From Pyrobaculum sp. (GTDB lineage Archaea > Thermoproteota > Thermoprotei > Thermoproteales > Thermoproteaceae), in contig WYEI01000150.1 in the NCBI GenBank assembly GCA_009903905.1, positions 1-7,664 on the forward strand: a stretch of 7,664 nucleotides of DNA, read 5' to 3'. Positions 1,841 through 7,376 of the stretch are shown here, piece after piece. The notes beneath the pieces were generated by a model that did no database searches, had not been told where the DNA came from, and was given only the letters and a program-made list of their open reading frames with translations. Numbering within the stretch: the first letter of the stretch is position 1; every line of letters starts with the position of its first letter. Made by a program: the position numbers and the translations under genes.

Positions 1841-2440
1841 TTAGCGTCGCCTCGTGGCGAGGTACAACGCCAAAATTGCCGTTACGACGGCTACAGCTAT
1901 TGCCACATATGTGACTGGATGTACGTAGGGCTTCTCAACCACAACTGTATACGTCGCTGGGGCAATCTGCGTCGTAGCTTGCTCTGTGTGCTGGATAGCG
2001 GTGTTGGGACTTCGGCTCGTCGCCTGTATCGTTATGGTTTCGTAATGCGTGTTTCCATTGTCGTCGTCTATCCTCGCAGATATCTCCACAACGCCCCTCG
2101 CTCTGAGCATCGCCACGGCCAGCTCCACATTTGTCGCCCCTGGCCTCACCTCGTCCTCCAAGTCCACAGCCTTGAGGACGCCGCCGCTCCACTCCTTCAG
2201 CCTAGCCCACGGGGAGAAGCGGACGTGCACAACATCGCCGCCTGTGATGTTTATGGTATAGCCGGCCAAACCCTCCGGCGCCTTGTCGAGGATAAGCGTT
2301 ACGTTGATGAAGTCGCCGCTCTCCACCACACGTGCCGTCAAGGCCGAGAAAACCAGGTCGGCAGTTAACAGGAATGTAAACAACGCAATTACGTACGTTA
2401 TGGGCCCGATTTGTATGAACCTAGACGGTGCTACGTTCAT
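1841..2440 (-). CDS. Membrane-anchored cohesin-like protein
   Basis: The 199-residue protein begins with a hydrophobic segment at about 13-34 (signal peptide or anchor). Next comes one cohesin-like module at about 36-130, then a Ser/Thr/Gln-rich linker at about 138-165. It ends with a transmembrane helix at about 174-195 and a basic tail, TRRR. The predicted topology puts the module outside the cell, tethered by its C terminus. The module is paralogous to one in the preceding gene. Both share a LDKAPEGLAGY / LDRAPGGLSGF motif, a phenylalanine-Pro-Trp-Ala segment (FSPWARL / FPDWAGL), KAVD followed by VRPGATNV / IRPGAQNV, and a terminal IDDD with Asn or Gly. Unlike its partner it has no cysteine. 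Its ATG overlaps the upstream stop in an ATGA junction, so translation is probably coupled. Cohesins are known to bind dockerins; that this one binds its neighbour's dockerin is inference. Assignment as cohesin rests on module layout and motifs, without a profile search. Confidence 0.8.
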   Translation of the reverse strand: MNVAPSRFIQIGPITYVIALFTFLLTADLVFSALTARVVESGDFINVTLILDKAPEGLAGYTINITGGDVVHVRFSPWARLKEWSGGVLKAVDLEDEVRPGATNVELAVAMLRARGVVEISARIDDDNGNTHYETITIQATSRSPNTAIQHTEQATTQIAPATYTVVVEKPYVHPVTYVAIAVAVVTAILALYLATRRR

Positions 2441-4419
2441 CGCACCATTCTAAACAGCGCCACGATGTCGTCGTAGTCTAGGCGGCCGTTTCTGTTGAAG
2501 TCGTATAGTTGCCAGCACTCGCGTATCGCCGGGTCGTCGAAGTATCTAAACAGCCTAACCACGTCGTCGTAGTCGAGCCTGCCGTTTCCGTTTAAATCCT
2601 CGTAAAGCCCATCGCCGTTTAGATCCCTAGGCATAACCCCGGCAACAGGCCTCGGACAGCCGGAGACGTAGACAACGCCAGGTTTCATAACCACGGCTAC
2701 GGGCCGTCCGCCGTCGTCATCGATGGTTGCATTTACAACCGAGGCCACGGCAACTCCAGGCGTCAATGCCTTCACAGTTATTTCGGCAAGTACGACGTTC
2801 TGCGCGCCGGGCCTGATTACGTCCCTTACATCAACCGCCTTAAGCTCGACCGTGTACTCATCTATCCTCCTCCAGTCGCTAAGCCCAGCCCAGTCGGGGA
2901 ACTTAACGCCTTCAATCCTAACGTCTGCGGGCACGCACAACGAAGCAGGTGGGCAGTAGCCCGGCAGAAGCGCCGCAGTACGCGTCGTAAACCGCAGTGA
3001 GAAGCCCGACAAGCCGCCGGGCGCCCTATCAAGAACAACCCTAACAACGCCGGCGCCTCCCACAGGGATTGTTGCATTTGTGACGTATATCTCAACGCGT
3101 GCCCCGCCGGACATCTCCTTCACCGTAAAACAAGCTCTTCCCACCTCCTCGCCCGGGGGTAGCTTTTGTATTGTGTATGGGCCTAGGAAGAAGTTTAATG
3201 AAACGCAATACGTGCCCGGCGTGTTTGGCGCCGTGAGGCCGAAGCTTTTTGTAATTACTCTGTGCGCCTCTATCTGCCCGTCCCACAGCCGCGTAATTTC
3301 ACGGTAGTTCCAGTCGTAGACCACCAGGTGGGCTGTGCAGTTGGCGCAACATCTAGCCAGTACAAACTCGGCGTAGCCGCCGACGACGACGCCTGGGGCG
3401 GCCTCATTACTGTTAAGGCGAAACTGGCGGAGGTAAAAACATCTCTCTGGGTTTAGCTCTACGTCGAGAGACATGTCGCTTGATACGTAGATGTTTCTCT
3501 CTCCGCTGTATTTAATCTTTGTGCCAGCCACGTCGTATTCTTTCTCTGCCCTTACGACATAGCTCCCCTCGGAGAGTAGGAAAACAGCGACGCCAGAGTA
3601 ATCAGCATATTGACACATGCCGCTGGCACATACACGCGCGCCTGCGGCGGCGGAGCCGTCTACATGCACAGCCCTCACCTTGACCTGATACTGCCTGCCC
3701 ACCCTAACCGACTTCTCCACGGCGTCTCTTCCCACATCAGAGCTGTATTCGACGCGTATTGTGTATACGCCGTCTTTTAGGAATGTCACCGGGCCGATGT
3801 TTATCATGAGGGTGTGGCATGCGGTTATGCCGACGTCGAGCTCCAGGCCTTTGTAGACATAGTAAACCTCCCTTCCTCCGTAGTAAATCCTTGCCCTGAA
3901 ACTGCCTCTCTGCCCCGGCGAATCGACGTAGATAGAAAGCCGCAGAGTTCTTGCGTCGATCCAGTCTTCTCTCACTTCGCGGATTTTTGGGGGCATCAGT
4001 GCCATGGTGCAGACCTGTCCGAAGCCGTAGATGTCGATGGACTGTATCCACTGCGCCGTGCCCAGCCACAGAGGAATGCCTATAGCCGTAAAGCCCTCAC
4101 CGGCTTTTGCGACTTGTATCTGCGTCGCCGAATATTGTCTAACAGAGCCCCAGCCCCAAGCACAGTCCCAAGACCCCCCGAGTAGACACAGGCCAACCGC
4201 CGCGTCGAAATTCTGGAAGCCGTAAACAGCAACTTCGGCACGTAACGAGCCGGTCATATTGATTGAGGGGATCTCCGAGATCTTCAACCCAACAATCTCG
4301 CCGGGCGGAGGCGAGACGTAGGTAGGGTCATACCACGCATAGACATCTGGAGCTATATACTGCCCTACCACGATTACAACCGACAGGACAAGCATTAGTA
4401 AAAGCACAGCCCTTGCCAT
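2437..4419 (-). CDS. Secreted Ig-like / cohesin-like / dockerin protein
   Basis: This 660-residue protein has a signal peptide (about 1-28, ending VYA). Domains in order are β-rich modules of unknown type (about 30-240), a carboxypeptidase-regulatory-like Ig fold (about 244-323, with DGSAAAGARVC and SGVAVFLLSEGSYVVRAEKEY-like features), an Ig-like segment (about 327-432), a cohesin-like module (about 441-586) and a C-terminal dockerin (about 598-660). The dockerin has two F-hand calcium loops, D608-N610-N612-G613-D616-D619 and D640-N642-N644-G645-D648-D651. Each is followed by a matching helix (DDVVRLFRYF, DDIVALFRMV). The preceding DLNGDGLYED resembles other archaeal dockerins I know. Sixteen cysteines suggest disulfides, and several N-x-S/T sequons suggest glycosylation. 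No catalytic motif is visible. I chose ATG 4419 (MARAV) because it lies about 24 bp from the TATA box; TTG 4425 would add two residues. The gene heads the operon with the anchored cohesin protein. Confidence 0.85.
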   Translation of the reverse strand: MARAVLLLMLVLSVVIVVGQYIAPDVYAWYDPTYVSPPPGEIVGLKISEIPSINMTGSLRAEVAVYGFQNFDAAVGLCLLGGSWDCAWGWGSVRQYSATQIQVAKAGEGFTAIGIPLWLGTAQWIQSIDIYGFGQVCTMALMPPKIREVREDWIDARTLRLSIYVDSPGQRGSFRARIYYGGREVYYVYKGLELDVGITACHTLMINIGPVTFLKDGVYTIRVEYSSDVGRDAVEKSVRVGRQYQVKVRAVHVDGSAAAGARVCASGMCQYADYSGVAVFLLSEGSYVVRAEKEYDVAGTKIKYSGERNIYVSSDMSLDVELNPERCFYLRQFRLNSNEAAPGVVVGGYAEFVLARCCANCTAHLVVYDWNYREITRLWDGQIEAHRVITKSFGLTAPNTPGTYCVSLNFFLGPYTIQKLPPGEEVGRACFTVKEMSGGARVEIYVTNATIPVGGAGVVRVVLDRAPGGLSGFSLRFTTRTAALLPGYCPPASLCVPADVRIEGVKFPDWAGLSDWRRIDEYTVELKAVDVRDVIRPGAQNVVLAEITVKALTPGVAVASVVNATIDDDGGRPVAVVMKPGVVYVSGCPRPVAGVMPRDLNGDGLYEDLNGNGRLDYDDVVRLFRYFDDPAIRECWQLYDFNRNGRLDYDDIVALFRMVR

Positions 4420-4435
4420 GAACAACTCTGGAGGG

Positions 4436-4450
4436 GAAAATATATTTTTC
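4436..4450 (-). promoter_or_regulatory. TATA box of the cohesin/dockerin operon
   Basis: The minus strand reads GAAAAATATATTTTC, centred near 4443. The ATG at 4419 is about 24 bp downstream, which fits a leaderless transcript beginning at the start codon. No Shine-Dalgarno sequence precedes that ATG on this strand. This promoter probably serves both genes of the operon. Confidence 0.65.
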
Positions 4451-4455
4451 TTGCG

Positions 4456-4469
4456 GCGTCTCTTGACGC
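4456..4469. promoter_or_regulatory. Inverted repeat upstream of the operon TATA box
   Basis: GCGTC-TCTT-GACGC is a perfect 5-bp palindrome with a 4-nt spacer. It sits 6 bp upstream of the A/T tract, about -37 to -50 relative to the predicted start. Archaeal activators commonly bind just upstream of BRE/TATA, so this is a candidate operator for the cohesin/dockerin operon. A 5-bp arm can also arise by chance. Confidence 0.3.
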
Positions 4470-5119: not shown

Positions 5120-5129
5120 AGGAGAAAGG

Positions 5130-5214
5130 CGCCGGGGGTGGGATTTGAACCCACGCCCCCTTGACGGGGACGGGATCTCCAGTCCCGCGCCTTGGGCCGC
5201 TCGGCCACCCCGGC
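5130..5214 (-). tRNA. tRNA-Ser(GGA)
   Basis: This is a complete 85-nt class II tRNA on the minus strand. The acceptor GCCGGGG/CCCCGGC has discriminator G at 5130. The anticodon stem CGGGA/TCCCG encloses the loop CTGGAGA, giving anticodon GGA for UCC/UCU serine codons. The long variable arm pairs CCCCG-type bases around a short loop, and the T arm is GTGGG-TTCAAAT-CCCAC. There is no intron and no encoded CCA. Its last 31 bases, including the discriminator, are identical to those of tRNA-Ser(GCT) at 149-179, as expected for isoacceptors charged by one seryl-tRNA synthetase. Confidence 0.96.
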
Positions 5215-5234: not shown

Positions 5235-5247
5235 TATTTAAGCTTTA
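5235..5247 (-). promoter_or_regulatory. TATA box of tRNA-Ser(GGA), abutting the livG-type stop codon
   Basis: The minus strand reads AAGCTTAAATA, with the TTAAATA core at 5241-5235 centred 24 bp from the tRNA 5' end. The BRE-like bases touch the TAA stop of the ATPase gene at 5247-5245. This repeats the layout seen at the other tRNA-Ser gene. Confidence 0.6.
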
Positions 5248-6012
5248 TCCCCCGATATAGACCTCGCGTACCTTGGGGTCGTTCGCCACTTGGTCCGGCA
5301 GGCCCTGCGCTATTACTTTTCCGCTTGCCATTGCGTAGACGTAGTCTACGTATCTGAAAGCTATGTCGATTCTATGCTCAATCACGAGGAATGTAATCCC
5401 TTGCTGGTTTATGTCCTTAACTATTTTGAAGACTTCGTGTGCTTGGTCCACGGGAACACCTGCGATGGGTTCGTCTAAGATTACGAGGTCTGCACCCGCC
5501 ATCAAGGCCCGTGCCAGCTCTAGTAACTTCATTTCACCTGCAGAAAGGAGGTAGGCAGGGGCATCCCACTTGCCGTCGAGCCTAACGGCTCTGAGGATCT
5601 TAAAGGCTTTTTTGACTAATTCCTCTTCTTCTTTAACCCAGTTCTTCACAATGGCTGAAAAGACGCTCTCTCCGCGTTGGCCTCTAGCCACGGCCAAGAG
5701 ATTTTCTAACACTGTAAGCCTCTGGAAGACCTGCGGTATCTGGAAAGTCCGCACTATCCCAGCTTCAAAGATCTTGTGGGGAGGCCACCCCGTGATGTTT
5801 ATCGCCTTGCCGTCTGCCCTCGTGTAAATCACCTCGCCTACCTCTGGCTTGTAGACGCCCGTGATTACGTTAACTAAAGTAGTTTTGCCGGAGCCGTTAG
5901 GCCCTATGATCAAGGTGATCTTCCCCCTTTCTACCTCAACATTCACTCCGTCTAATGCACGAAATGCGCCAAACTGTTTTACGATGTCTTTAGTGGTTAA
6001 AATAGAGGCCAT
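5245..6012 (-). CDS. livG: ABC transporter ATP-binding protein, LivG type
   Basis: This 255-residue cytoplasmic ATPase drives import for a branched-chain-amino-acid-type (HAAT) transporter. All nucleotide-binding motifs are intact: Walker A GPNGSGKT (37-44), Q-loop Gln91 in FQIPQVF, signature LSAGE (156-160, a variant of LSGGQ) within a run ending ELARAL, Walker B LVILDEP (176-182) with catalytic Glu181, and H-loop His213 in VIEHRID. The long insert between the Q-loop and the signature and the C-terminal tail GKVIAQGLPDQVANDPKVREVYIGG-like ending (residues 231-255) are typical of LivG rather than the shorter LivF. It lies 29 nt downstream of the binding-protein gene and is probably co-transcribed. 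The ATG at 6012 has no Shine-Dalgarno. A run of six Ts just upstream could cause partial termination. True substrate is uncertain; related systems also carry amides or urea. Confidence 0.92.
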   Translation of the reverse strand: MASILTTKDIVKQFGAFRALDGVNVEVERGKITLIIGPNGSGKTTLVNVITGVYKPEVGEVIYTRADGKAINITGWPPHKIFEAGIVRTFQIPQVFQRLTVLENLLAVARGQRGESVFSAIVKNWVKEEEELVKKAFKILRAVRLDGKWDAPAYLLSAGEMKLLELARALMAGADLVILDEPIAGVPVDQAHEVFKIVKDINQQGITFLVIEHRIDIAFRYVDYVYAMASGKVIAQGLPDQVANDPKVREVYIGG

Positions 6013-6041
6013 TTGCGAAAAAACGCGTAGGTTAAAATGTG

Positions 6042-7376
6042 TTACTGGAAAAGAGGCTTGCCTTGGTCAAATACCACAATCTTTCTATCTGTGCCGTAGT
6101 AGTAGGCGGCGTCTACGTATTTAGGAGTTCCTCCCTCAAGCACTACGCCCCATATGACGTAGTTGGGATACGCACGGTCGCCGGCTGCGTCTAGATATAC
6201 TTTCCCAGTCGCGCCTTGGTATTTACCTTCCTTACCCCACTGCTCAAGAGTCTCCTTGACTTTTACTGGGTCGTCTGTGCCGATGGAGCACACAATCTGC
6301 ATGAGCATCATGGCCGCATCATAGCCGTATGGGTCGTAAGCAACTGGATCCTTGCCGTACTTGGCCTTGTACTCCTGTTTAAACTGCTGGTACTTGGGGT
6401 CGTTGGGGTCCGGCGCTGCGATAGTGCCAAGCATCTTGCCGGCGGCCATCTCCTTGCCCACCTGTTTTATCATGGCGTCGCTATATGCTATGCCGTCGGT
6501 TCCTATCCACCTTACTTTACTAAGAACGGGGTCCTGCGCGGCGGCTTGCACCGCGGCTATGCCGTCGTCTTCAAAAGTGACGAAGATTATGGCTGCGTCT
6601 GAGCCGGGTTGGCCAAGAGCGGCGGATAGCTTCCTAATTACCTCGGGCACGGCTGTTGGGAAAGCCTTGGGGTCTGGGTCGTAGCCGGCTGAGGCGGCGA
6701 TTTGTATACCGAGTTTCTTAGTCTCGTTTATTATGGCGTTGCTAAGCCCAAGGCCCCAAGCGTCATTTCTATATATTATTACAGCTCTCTTTACGCCGAG
6801 GTACTTAAGCAGGTCCGCTATGGCCATGGCTTGGGCGAAGTCTGTAGGCACTATTCTATACACCCAGTCGCCTGGTATTGCCAACAGCGGCGACGTAGAA
6901 GACGGAGAGAAAATCAAGATCTTGTTCTGATCGGCGAAAGACTTCACCGCACTGACTTCTCCGCTGGCCATCGGCCCGACGATGAGTCGAGCTCCCTTGG
7001 CATATAGCGTCTGTACCTTCTGCAACGCCTGTTGCGGGTTTGTGCCTGTGTCCTCCACTAGTAGTTGGAATTGGAAGTTAGGACACATCTTGTTGGCGTC
7101 TTCAACAGCCAGCTCCACGGCGTTTTTAACACCGATACCGTAAGACTGAAGACCGCCGGTCAAAGGCAAAGCCGCGCCGATGTAAACCGTCTTTTTCTGC
7201 GTCGTGGTAGGCGTAGCCGTCTGTGTAGGAGTTGTGGTCTGTGGAGGTGGGGTGGTTGTGGCCGTTGGTGAGGGGGTTGTTTTGGGTTGTTGTCCTCCCG
7301 TTGCGAGGAGTGCCGCTATTGCTGCTAGTACTACTACTACGGCCGCAATTCCTATATATAGGGTTTTTGAAGCCAT
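6042..7376 (-). CDS. livK: Substrate-binding protein of a HAAT-type ABC transporter
   Basis: The 444-residue protein is an extracellular receptor that delivers ligand to the permease. Residues 1-27 form a hydrophobic signal-anchor with no lipobox cysteine, so it is probably held by the helix itself. Residues 28-62 are an almost pure Thr/Pro/Gln linker, common in crenarchaeal binding proteins and likely glycosylated. The type I periplasmic-binding fold (Peripla_BP_6) follows. It opens with VYIGAALPLTGGLQSYGIGV, then LVEDTGTNPQQALQ, the ligand-loop regions GPMASGEV (134-141) and SPSSTSPLL (157-165), and YGYDAAMM (350-357) near the second lobe. Two cysteines (98, 363) are present. It is the first gene of the minus-strand transporter unit. 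A TATA box 22 bp upstream of the ATG suggests a leaderless mRNA. The substrate within the family (branched-chain amino acid, amide, other) cannot be read from sequence alone. Confidence 0.93.
   Translation of the reverse strand: MASKTLYIGIAAVVVVLAAIAALLATGGQQPKTTPSPTATTTPPPQTTTPTQTATPTTTQKKTVYIGAALPLTGGLQSYGIGVKNAVELAVEDANKMCPNFQFQLLVEDTGTNPQQALQKVQTLYAKGARLIVGPMASGEVSAVKSFADQNKILIFSPSSTSPLLAIPGDWVYRIVPTDFAQAMAIADLLKYLGVKRAVIIYRNDAWGLGLSNAIINETKKLGIQIAASAGYDPDPKAFPTAVPEVIRKLSAALGQPGSDAAIIFVTFEDDGIAAVQAAAQDPVLSKVRWIGTDGIAYSDAMIKQVGKEMAAGKMLGTIAAPDPNDPKYQQFKQEYKAKYGKDPVAYDPYGYDAAMMLMQIVCSIGTDDPVKVKETLEQWGKEGKYQGATGKVYLDAAGDRAYPNYVIWGVVLEGGTPKYVDAAYYYGTDRKIVVFDQGKPLFQ

Follow-up and report, generated by a model that had tools for sequence, protein, structure and literature searches.

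The closest described counterpart of the gene pair considered here is found in Archaeoglobus fulgidus, where, according to the available part of the report, the ORF2376 cohesin and the ORF2375 dockerin were selected as the strongest and most specific pair and served to fasten proteins to cells of E. coli (Ko et al., 2021; PMC9705933). Judging from their numbering, these two genes are presumably neighbours. For cohesin and dockerin proteins outside cellulosomes, the accessible text of a 2017 review states that their function is not known (PMC5244752); attachment to the outer cell layer is suggested in the available portion of a 2022 paper on anaerobic methanotrophic archaea (ANME) (PMC9012536), and in the accessible sections of two haloarchaeal papers the dockerin is taken to bind the substrate (PMC10963439, PMC13260240). 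Here we have analysed a 7,664-nt stretch of DNA from Pyrobaculum sp. (contig WYEI01000150.1), hereafter the window, in which a dockerin gene (gene A) is followed by a cohesin-like gene (gene B). We read this locus as a Thermoproteota variant of the archaeal noncellulosomal cohesin-dockerin pair, whose two products would bind each other, and A and B probably constitute a calcium-dependent surface-display pair in which B is a one-socket membrane anchor for the dockerin-tagged, exported A. This is supported by the gene order and overlap, the fold of a module in A, the homology of B to that module, the EF-hand residues of the dockerin, the membrane helix of B and the conservation of the gene order.

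Both open reading frames (ORFs) were confirmed on the minus strand with A upstream of B, and they overlap in an ATGA at 2437-2440, where the ATG of B shares letters with the TGA of A. The start of A was placed at the ATG at 4419 (the ORF list gave a TTG at 4425) and its stop at 2437-2439. An initial annotation of the window had proposed an ATGA-coupled two-gene layout, which is borne out, and A is likewise followed by B in a related metagenome-assembled genome (MAG) and in other archaea. The range given in that annotation runs on to 4469, perhaps on account of a TATA-like element ahead of A. Because A has a cohesin-fold module of its own, the pair holds three modules, namely the cohesin-fold module and the dockerin of A and the cohesin-like module of B. 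The features of the pair are as follows.

2437 to 4419, minus strand: gene A, 660 aa, with a signal-like segment, an N-terminal region (residues about 30 to 435), a cohesin-fold module and a dockerin (ORF, Pfam, relatives)
2662 to 3096, minus strand: A's own cohesin-fold module, residues about 442-586 (model and fold comparison)
2446 to 2631, minus strand: dockerin with two EF-hand-like loops and helices, residues 597-658 (Pfam)
2563 to 2598, minus strand: putative calcium loop 1, DLNGNGRLDYDD, residues 608-619 (sequence and family conservation)
2467 to 2502, minus strand: putative calcium loop 2, DFNRNGRLDYDD, residues 640-651 (sequence and family conservation)
2596 to 2625, minus strand: additional acidic loop DLNGDGLYED immediately ahead of loop 1, residues 599-608, a likely calcium binder (70-row alignment)
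1841 to 2440, minus strand: gene B, 199 aa, single-cohesin membrane-anchored protein, ATGA overlap with A (ORF, relatives, model)
2015 to 2344, minus strand: cohesin-like ectodomain of B, residues 33-142
2363 to 2404, minus strand: N-terminal hydrophobic helix of B, residues 13-26, which may be a signal peptide or another membrane helix (model)
1847 to 1918, minus strand: C-terminal membrane helix of B, residues 175-198, ending in RRR (model)
4449 to 4437, minus strand: TATA-like element AAAAATATATTTT, about 24 nt before the ATG of A, candidate promoter element (from sequence only)

In the arrangement that we favour, A would be exported and its C-terminal dockerin would fold around calcium, and B would be exported too, its C-terminal helix retaining it in the membrane and its cohesin lying on the outside. 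The dockerin of A would then plug into the cohesin of B, and the rest of A, with the N-terminal part presumably as passenger, would remain attached to the cell surface; the overlap of stop and start codons would keep A and B in step. The cohesin-fold module of A itself may serve as a rigid neighbour of the dockerin, like an X module, or as a second socket for stacking a further dockerin protein.

Gene A has an N terminus that looks signal-like by eye, and in the structure model its last 220 residues form a beta-sandwich module followed by the dockerin. A Pfam scan of A at E<=10 returned EF-hand and dockerin families alone, all C-terminal; a weak match of A to the S-layer protein SlaB in NCBIfam (13 bits where the cut-off is 700, E 0.037) was set aside. 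The cohesin family PF00963 matches neither A nor B at E<=10, and searches of PDB sequences with A, B and alignments did not convincingly reach cohesins, the best match being 5lxv_A, a scaffoldin C cohesin chain, at E 0.22. Since these sequence searches gave no convincing cohesin match, folds were compared instead. The model of A's module has a predicted local distance difference test (pLDDT) value of 94, and the best 50 PDB rows are all cohesins, including 2xdh of Archaeoglobus fulgidus, so that the modelled module is of the cohesin fold. PF00963 reaches 6 of the 70 members of a family alignment at E<=0.01 (best 1.4e-4); the rows of this alignment were chosen for a cohesin and a dockerin standing side by side, an arrangement which we call tandem. 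Between the two modules lies a short linker with two nearly invariant prolines.

The last 64 residues of A (PRDLNGDGLYEDLNGNGRLDYDD...YDFNRNGRLDYDDIVALFRMVR) contain the duplicated calcium loop and helix of a type I dockerin, with two DxNxNGxxDxxD loops and model helices at 180-188 and 212-222. In both loops, positions 1, 3, 5, 9 and 12 are occupied by acidic or amide residues. In the extra loop in front of them, D599, D603 and D608 are invariant in the 70 rows (alignment positions 162, 166 and 171), and residue 601 (mostly D, N here), G604 and E607 are conserved in at least 90% (positions 164, 167 and 170), from which calcium binding by all three loops may be expected. In whole A, EF-hand_6 (28.9 bits, cut-off 25) and EF-hand_1 (25.6 bits, cut-off 25.4) pass, and Dockerin_1 (PF00404) stays under its cut-off of 22.9 with 18.2 bits, or 21.8 bits in a 223-aa piece. 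Dockerin_1 is found in 54 of the 70 alignment members at E<=0.01, and the relatives L182 (24.0 bits) and L208 (25.3 bits) pass the cut-off. The two dockerin repeats of A are nearly identical and would thus allow binding in two orientations, as the titles of PDB entries 2vn5 and 2vn6 indicate for some clostridial dockerins.

In its model, B has a hydrophobic helix near the N terminus, then a single beta-sandwich module and a linker of low model confidence, and ends in a helix at 175-198. B is homologous to A's module by BLASTP (3e-10) and by hhalign, which gives 99.2% to the family of that module. PF00963 is found in 3 of the 60 members of the B family at E<=0.01, and some anchors bear a PGF-CTERM signal (TIGR04126 in 5 of the 60 members of the anchor alignment A3). 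The cohesin/dockerin identity given in the initial annotation is thus upheld by the fold of A's module and the homology of B to it; as regards the profiles and models that it pointed to, the EF-hand families and the fold of A's module agree, but neither PF00963 nor a Dockerin_1 score above cut-off was obtained, and the fold match of B to cohesins is weaker than that of A. The best VIA row for B is YcnI, and together with the missing PF00963 match this would fit a reading in which the two proteins do not dock, the EF-hand loops serve only to stabilise A at its C terminus, and B, an Ig-like membrane protein, is unrelated. We consider this very unlikely, as B is homologous to A's module, the best listed PDB rows for that module are cohesins, and the order of the genes is conserved.

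At E<=1e-3, 20 proteins related to A and 20 related to B were found, the weakest of the former sharing the C-terminal part only. The B relatives with an organism name come from a Pyrobaculum sp. MAG and a Thermoproteaceae MAG, and with these as the nearest named relatives the crenarchaeal origin proposed earlier for the window stands. Among the matches listed (at least 78 genome loci), the best two loci are from a Thermoproteaceae MAG that has the A-then-B order at both, with gaps of 13 and 553 nt; a scan of genome contigs with full-length A as query confirmed no relative. In the order to which this MAG belongs, 5 of 45 genomes match the tandem profile at E<=1e-3, and within those 45 genomes only the Thermoproteaceae MAG matches across both modules and has a B. 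In a tree of 86 tandem rows, which include duplicates, the window groups with Thermoproteaceae rows (98/88) and then with P0012 and P0013 (100/99 each), and this group stands beside 13 rows, mainly from methanogens and ANME (99/93).

To survey the gene order in archaea, loci were taken from the genome-contig scan, from searches of related genomes and from 391 Halobacteria genomes, in each of which up to eight candidates were scored and of which 129 match at E<=1e-20 (30 loci and 80 further stretches were used, a subset of the matches), and their ORFs were scanned with our own cohesin and dockerin profiles. This gave 142 distinct tandem genes, of which seven with under 900 nt downstream were dropped, leaving 135 with the window's included. 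On the same strand within 900 nt downstream, 94 of the 135 are followed by a cohesin-only gene, eight by a tandem gene and 33 by neither, as counted by domain position (counting by ORF starts gave 86/135). These genes are not independent, and in cluster representatives the pair is kept in 64/98 at 90% identity, 30/54 at 70% and 17/35 at 60%. A cohesin-only gene precedes the tandem gene in only 1/74 (L007). Most followers (89/94) have a C-terminal hydrophobic segment; hydrophobicity is low in L110, because the contig ends, in L081 (the follower at L009), because it ends in a dockerin, and in L149, L192 and L093. Gaps of 50 nt or less were found in 60 of the 81 measured, and eight, the window's among them, are 4-nt overlaps when starts are taken as the first possible codon. 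The pair layout is thus widespread in archaea and common in haloarchaea and some methanogens, and its conserved order, a dockerin protein followed by a cohesin-only protein, supports the plug-and-anchor logic of the initial annotation.

The L009 follower comes from ANME-2 (L009:6567-7496), where a tandem gene with a subtilase is followed by a cohesin protein that has an ordinary Pfam dockerin (Dockerin_1, 37 bits) at its end in place of a membrane segment. Such a protein would be an adaptor, possibly between two docking specificities, rather than an anchor. At three methanogen loci (L061, L043, L070), a run of several dockerin-only genes has a single cohesin protein encoded downstream.

Since the two modules stand side by side in all 70 alignment rows, which were picked for that, the dockerin of A could instead be covered in cis by A's own cohesin, leaving B with another role, e.g., as a membrane adhesin. 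Methanospirillum and related Methanomicrobiales make such a closed form improbable, as they carry dockerin genes without a profile-detected cohesin that are followed by a cohesin-only gene, at seven loci, six of them with a 4-nt overlap (L042, L044, L053, L057 and L063 complete; the dockerin genes of L036 and L076 cut at the contig end). Hence, the socket there must be in trans.

No enzyme family was found in A or B by Pfam and NCBIfam scans, in line with the initial annotation, which saw no recognisable enzyme; this does not extend to the relatives, as 14 of 21 tandem proteins scanned with Pfam, chosen and not random, contain an enzyme family. These are PhoX (L003, L014, L033, L035), PhoD (L029, L182, L197, L199, L208), a subtilase (L009), SNase (P0015, L022), an Rv2525c-like glycoside-hydrolase-like domain (L032) and a molybdopterin oxidoreductase domain (L048). 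Two others (L147, L181) contain a choice-of-anchor I domain, a family name that we take to denote a domain occurring with alternative surface anchors, and five show neither an enzyme nor a choice-of-anchor domain in Pfam (P0006, P0013, L007, L001, L002), with P0006, L001 and L002 being close kin of the window's A. Relatives of the C-terminal part of A also include, by name, haloarchaeal 5'-nucleotidases and PhoD proteins. As many relatives carry a recognisable enzyme, we consider it likelier that an exported protein is retained at the surface than that the pair is the adhesion or scaffold system suggested in the initial annotation. P0006, an A homologue of 1038 aa, has about 380 extra residues before its cohesin module; the HEILHLFGALD within them looks zinc-peptidase-like, no Pfam peptidase matches at E<=5, and we regard it as a lead only.

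The five PhoD-type genes and the two choice-of-anchor genes have no B neighbour, and all seven of their genomes have a full-length B match elsewhere, suggesting that one anchor serves several proteins. Five further tandem genes without a B neighbour group in the tree (L033, L035, L098 and L212, 100/97, with L141, 86/66), as if the anchor may have been lost once. The available part of one haloarchaeal paper (PMC10963439) lists in its gene table, amid glycoside hydrolases, gene 2719, a 258-aa 'S-layer glycoprotein' with two membrane helices, which could be a B-type anchor.

Weighing against both surface display through B and one shared anchor, 7 of 22 searched genomes have a tandem gene and no visible cohesin-only match, in a search where G005, G060, G292 and G319 have further, unsorted cohesin matches and the B match of G377 is split over two frames. 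Such retention of the tandem gene would also suit chain growth, in which the dockerin of A binds the cohesin of the next A head-to-tail and B forms the foot of a surface filament or coat. That A combines socket and plug in one chain and B is a socket only, and that two tandem genes stand in a row in the eight cases above, speak for it, whereas the short linker with its two prolines fits a rigid dyad as well. We regard chain growth, which is compatible with A being displayed on B, as possible but somewhat doubtful.

Returning to A and B as a display pair, we see an even chance that archaea share an old, general display system in which cohesin-dockerin dyads act as tags on exported proteins, notably on phosphate-scavenging haloarchaeal enzymes, the co-transcribed single-cohesin anchor holds them and also serves tagged proteins encoded elsewhere, and dyads can stack and let chains grow from one anchor; the window would be its Thermoproteota branch. 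That a tagged enzyme is followed, in a conserved order, by a membrane protein with a single cohesin speaks for surface retention, which can be tested directly, e.g., in cultivated haloarchaea, and the hyperthermophilic pair could serve as a heat-stable coupling module.

The remainder of the window, all on the minus strand, holds a tRNA gene at 149-247 (missed by ARAGORN, 51.4 bits in Rfam, by eye perhaps with a short anticodon-loop intron), a DUF169 protein at 263-1063, a tRNA-Ser (GGA) at 5128-5214 between the pair and an ABC transporter gene, and at 5245-7376 the ATPase and the periplasmic binding protein of an ABC transporter of the branched-chain amino acid type.

In the Archaeoglobaceae, PF00963 matches in 12 of 55 genomes, and nine of these 12 hold 10 genes with dockerin motifs, after each of which comes a cohesin-only gene whose C-terminal segment is hydrophobic; no such pair was seen in G446, G466 and G484. 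These figures come from 20 loci examined of 27 places listed, with dockerin motifs taken by a simple pattern, a single motif in L252 and L253, and a cut dockerin frame in L256. Eight of the 10 dockerin-motif genes carry a PF00963 cohesin of their own. L251, L252, L253, L254 and L257 have one more frame with dockerin-like motifs, either after the cohesin-only gene or overlapping its end, possibly making a three-gene set. L250 was considered as A. fulgidus itself and dropped, its cohesin matching 2xdh at 49.7 bits only, and contig L034, labelled Spirochaetes and perhaps mis-binned, has the dockerin and cohesin gene layout of the Archaeoglobaceae contig L051.

A dockerin gene adjoining a separate cohesin gene is found in the window, in the survey and in the Archaeoglobaceae, and since the latter share the order and the A. 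fulgidus pair binds (Ko et al., 2021), the layout of the window is known in kind. The window resembles the A. fulgidus pair in the cohesin fold and in having a dockerin protein and a separate cohesin protein, and differs in that its modules escape PF00963, an extra conserved acidic loop precedes the dockerin, the passenger is another one and the host belongs to the Thermoproteota. The cohesin and dockerin proteins of ANME are likewise archaeal and noncellulosomal, but their accounts, in the portions available, stress up to five cohesins and domain counts and not a single-cohesin two-gene unit (PMC9012536, PMC5244752). Bacterial cellulosomes share the plug-and-socket logic, with an anchored cohesin and a dockerin on an exported protein; in contrast, the window has one cohesin in A and one in B, and neither a multi-cohesin scaffold nor a carbohydrate-active enzyme. 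In some cellulosomal dockerins (type II complexes), a beta-sandwich X module stands directly before the dockerin, and 2b59 and 4u3s, which appear in the fold listing of A's module, are presumably such X module-dockerin type II complexes. The dyad of the window is alike in having a beta-sandwich before the dockerin, except that this neighbour is itself of the cohesin fold. No description of the two-gene unit was found in the literature searched, in partial texts, and an earlier note of the conserved order is possible, e.g., Peer 2009. In conclusion, the compact pair, which the initial annotation held to be little explored, follows the layout of the published Archaeoglobus pair (PMC9705933), while what is new, as far as our searches reach, is its branch in the Thermoproteota, the divergence of the modules and how widely the arrangement occurs.

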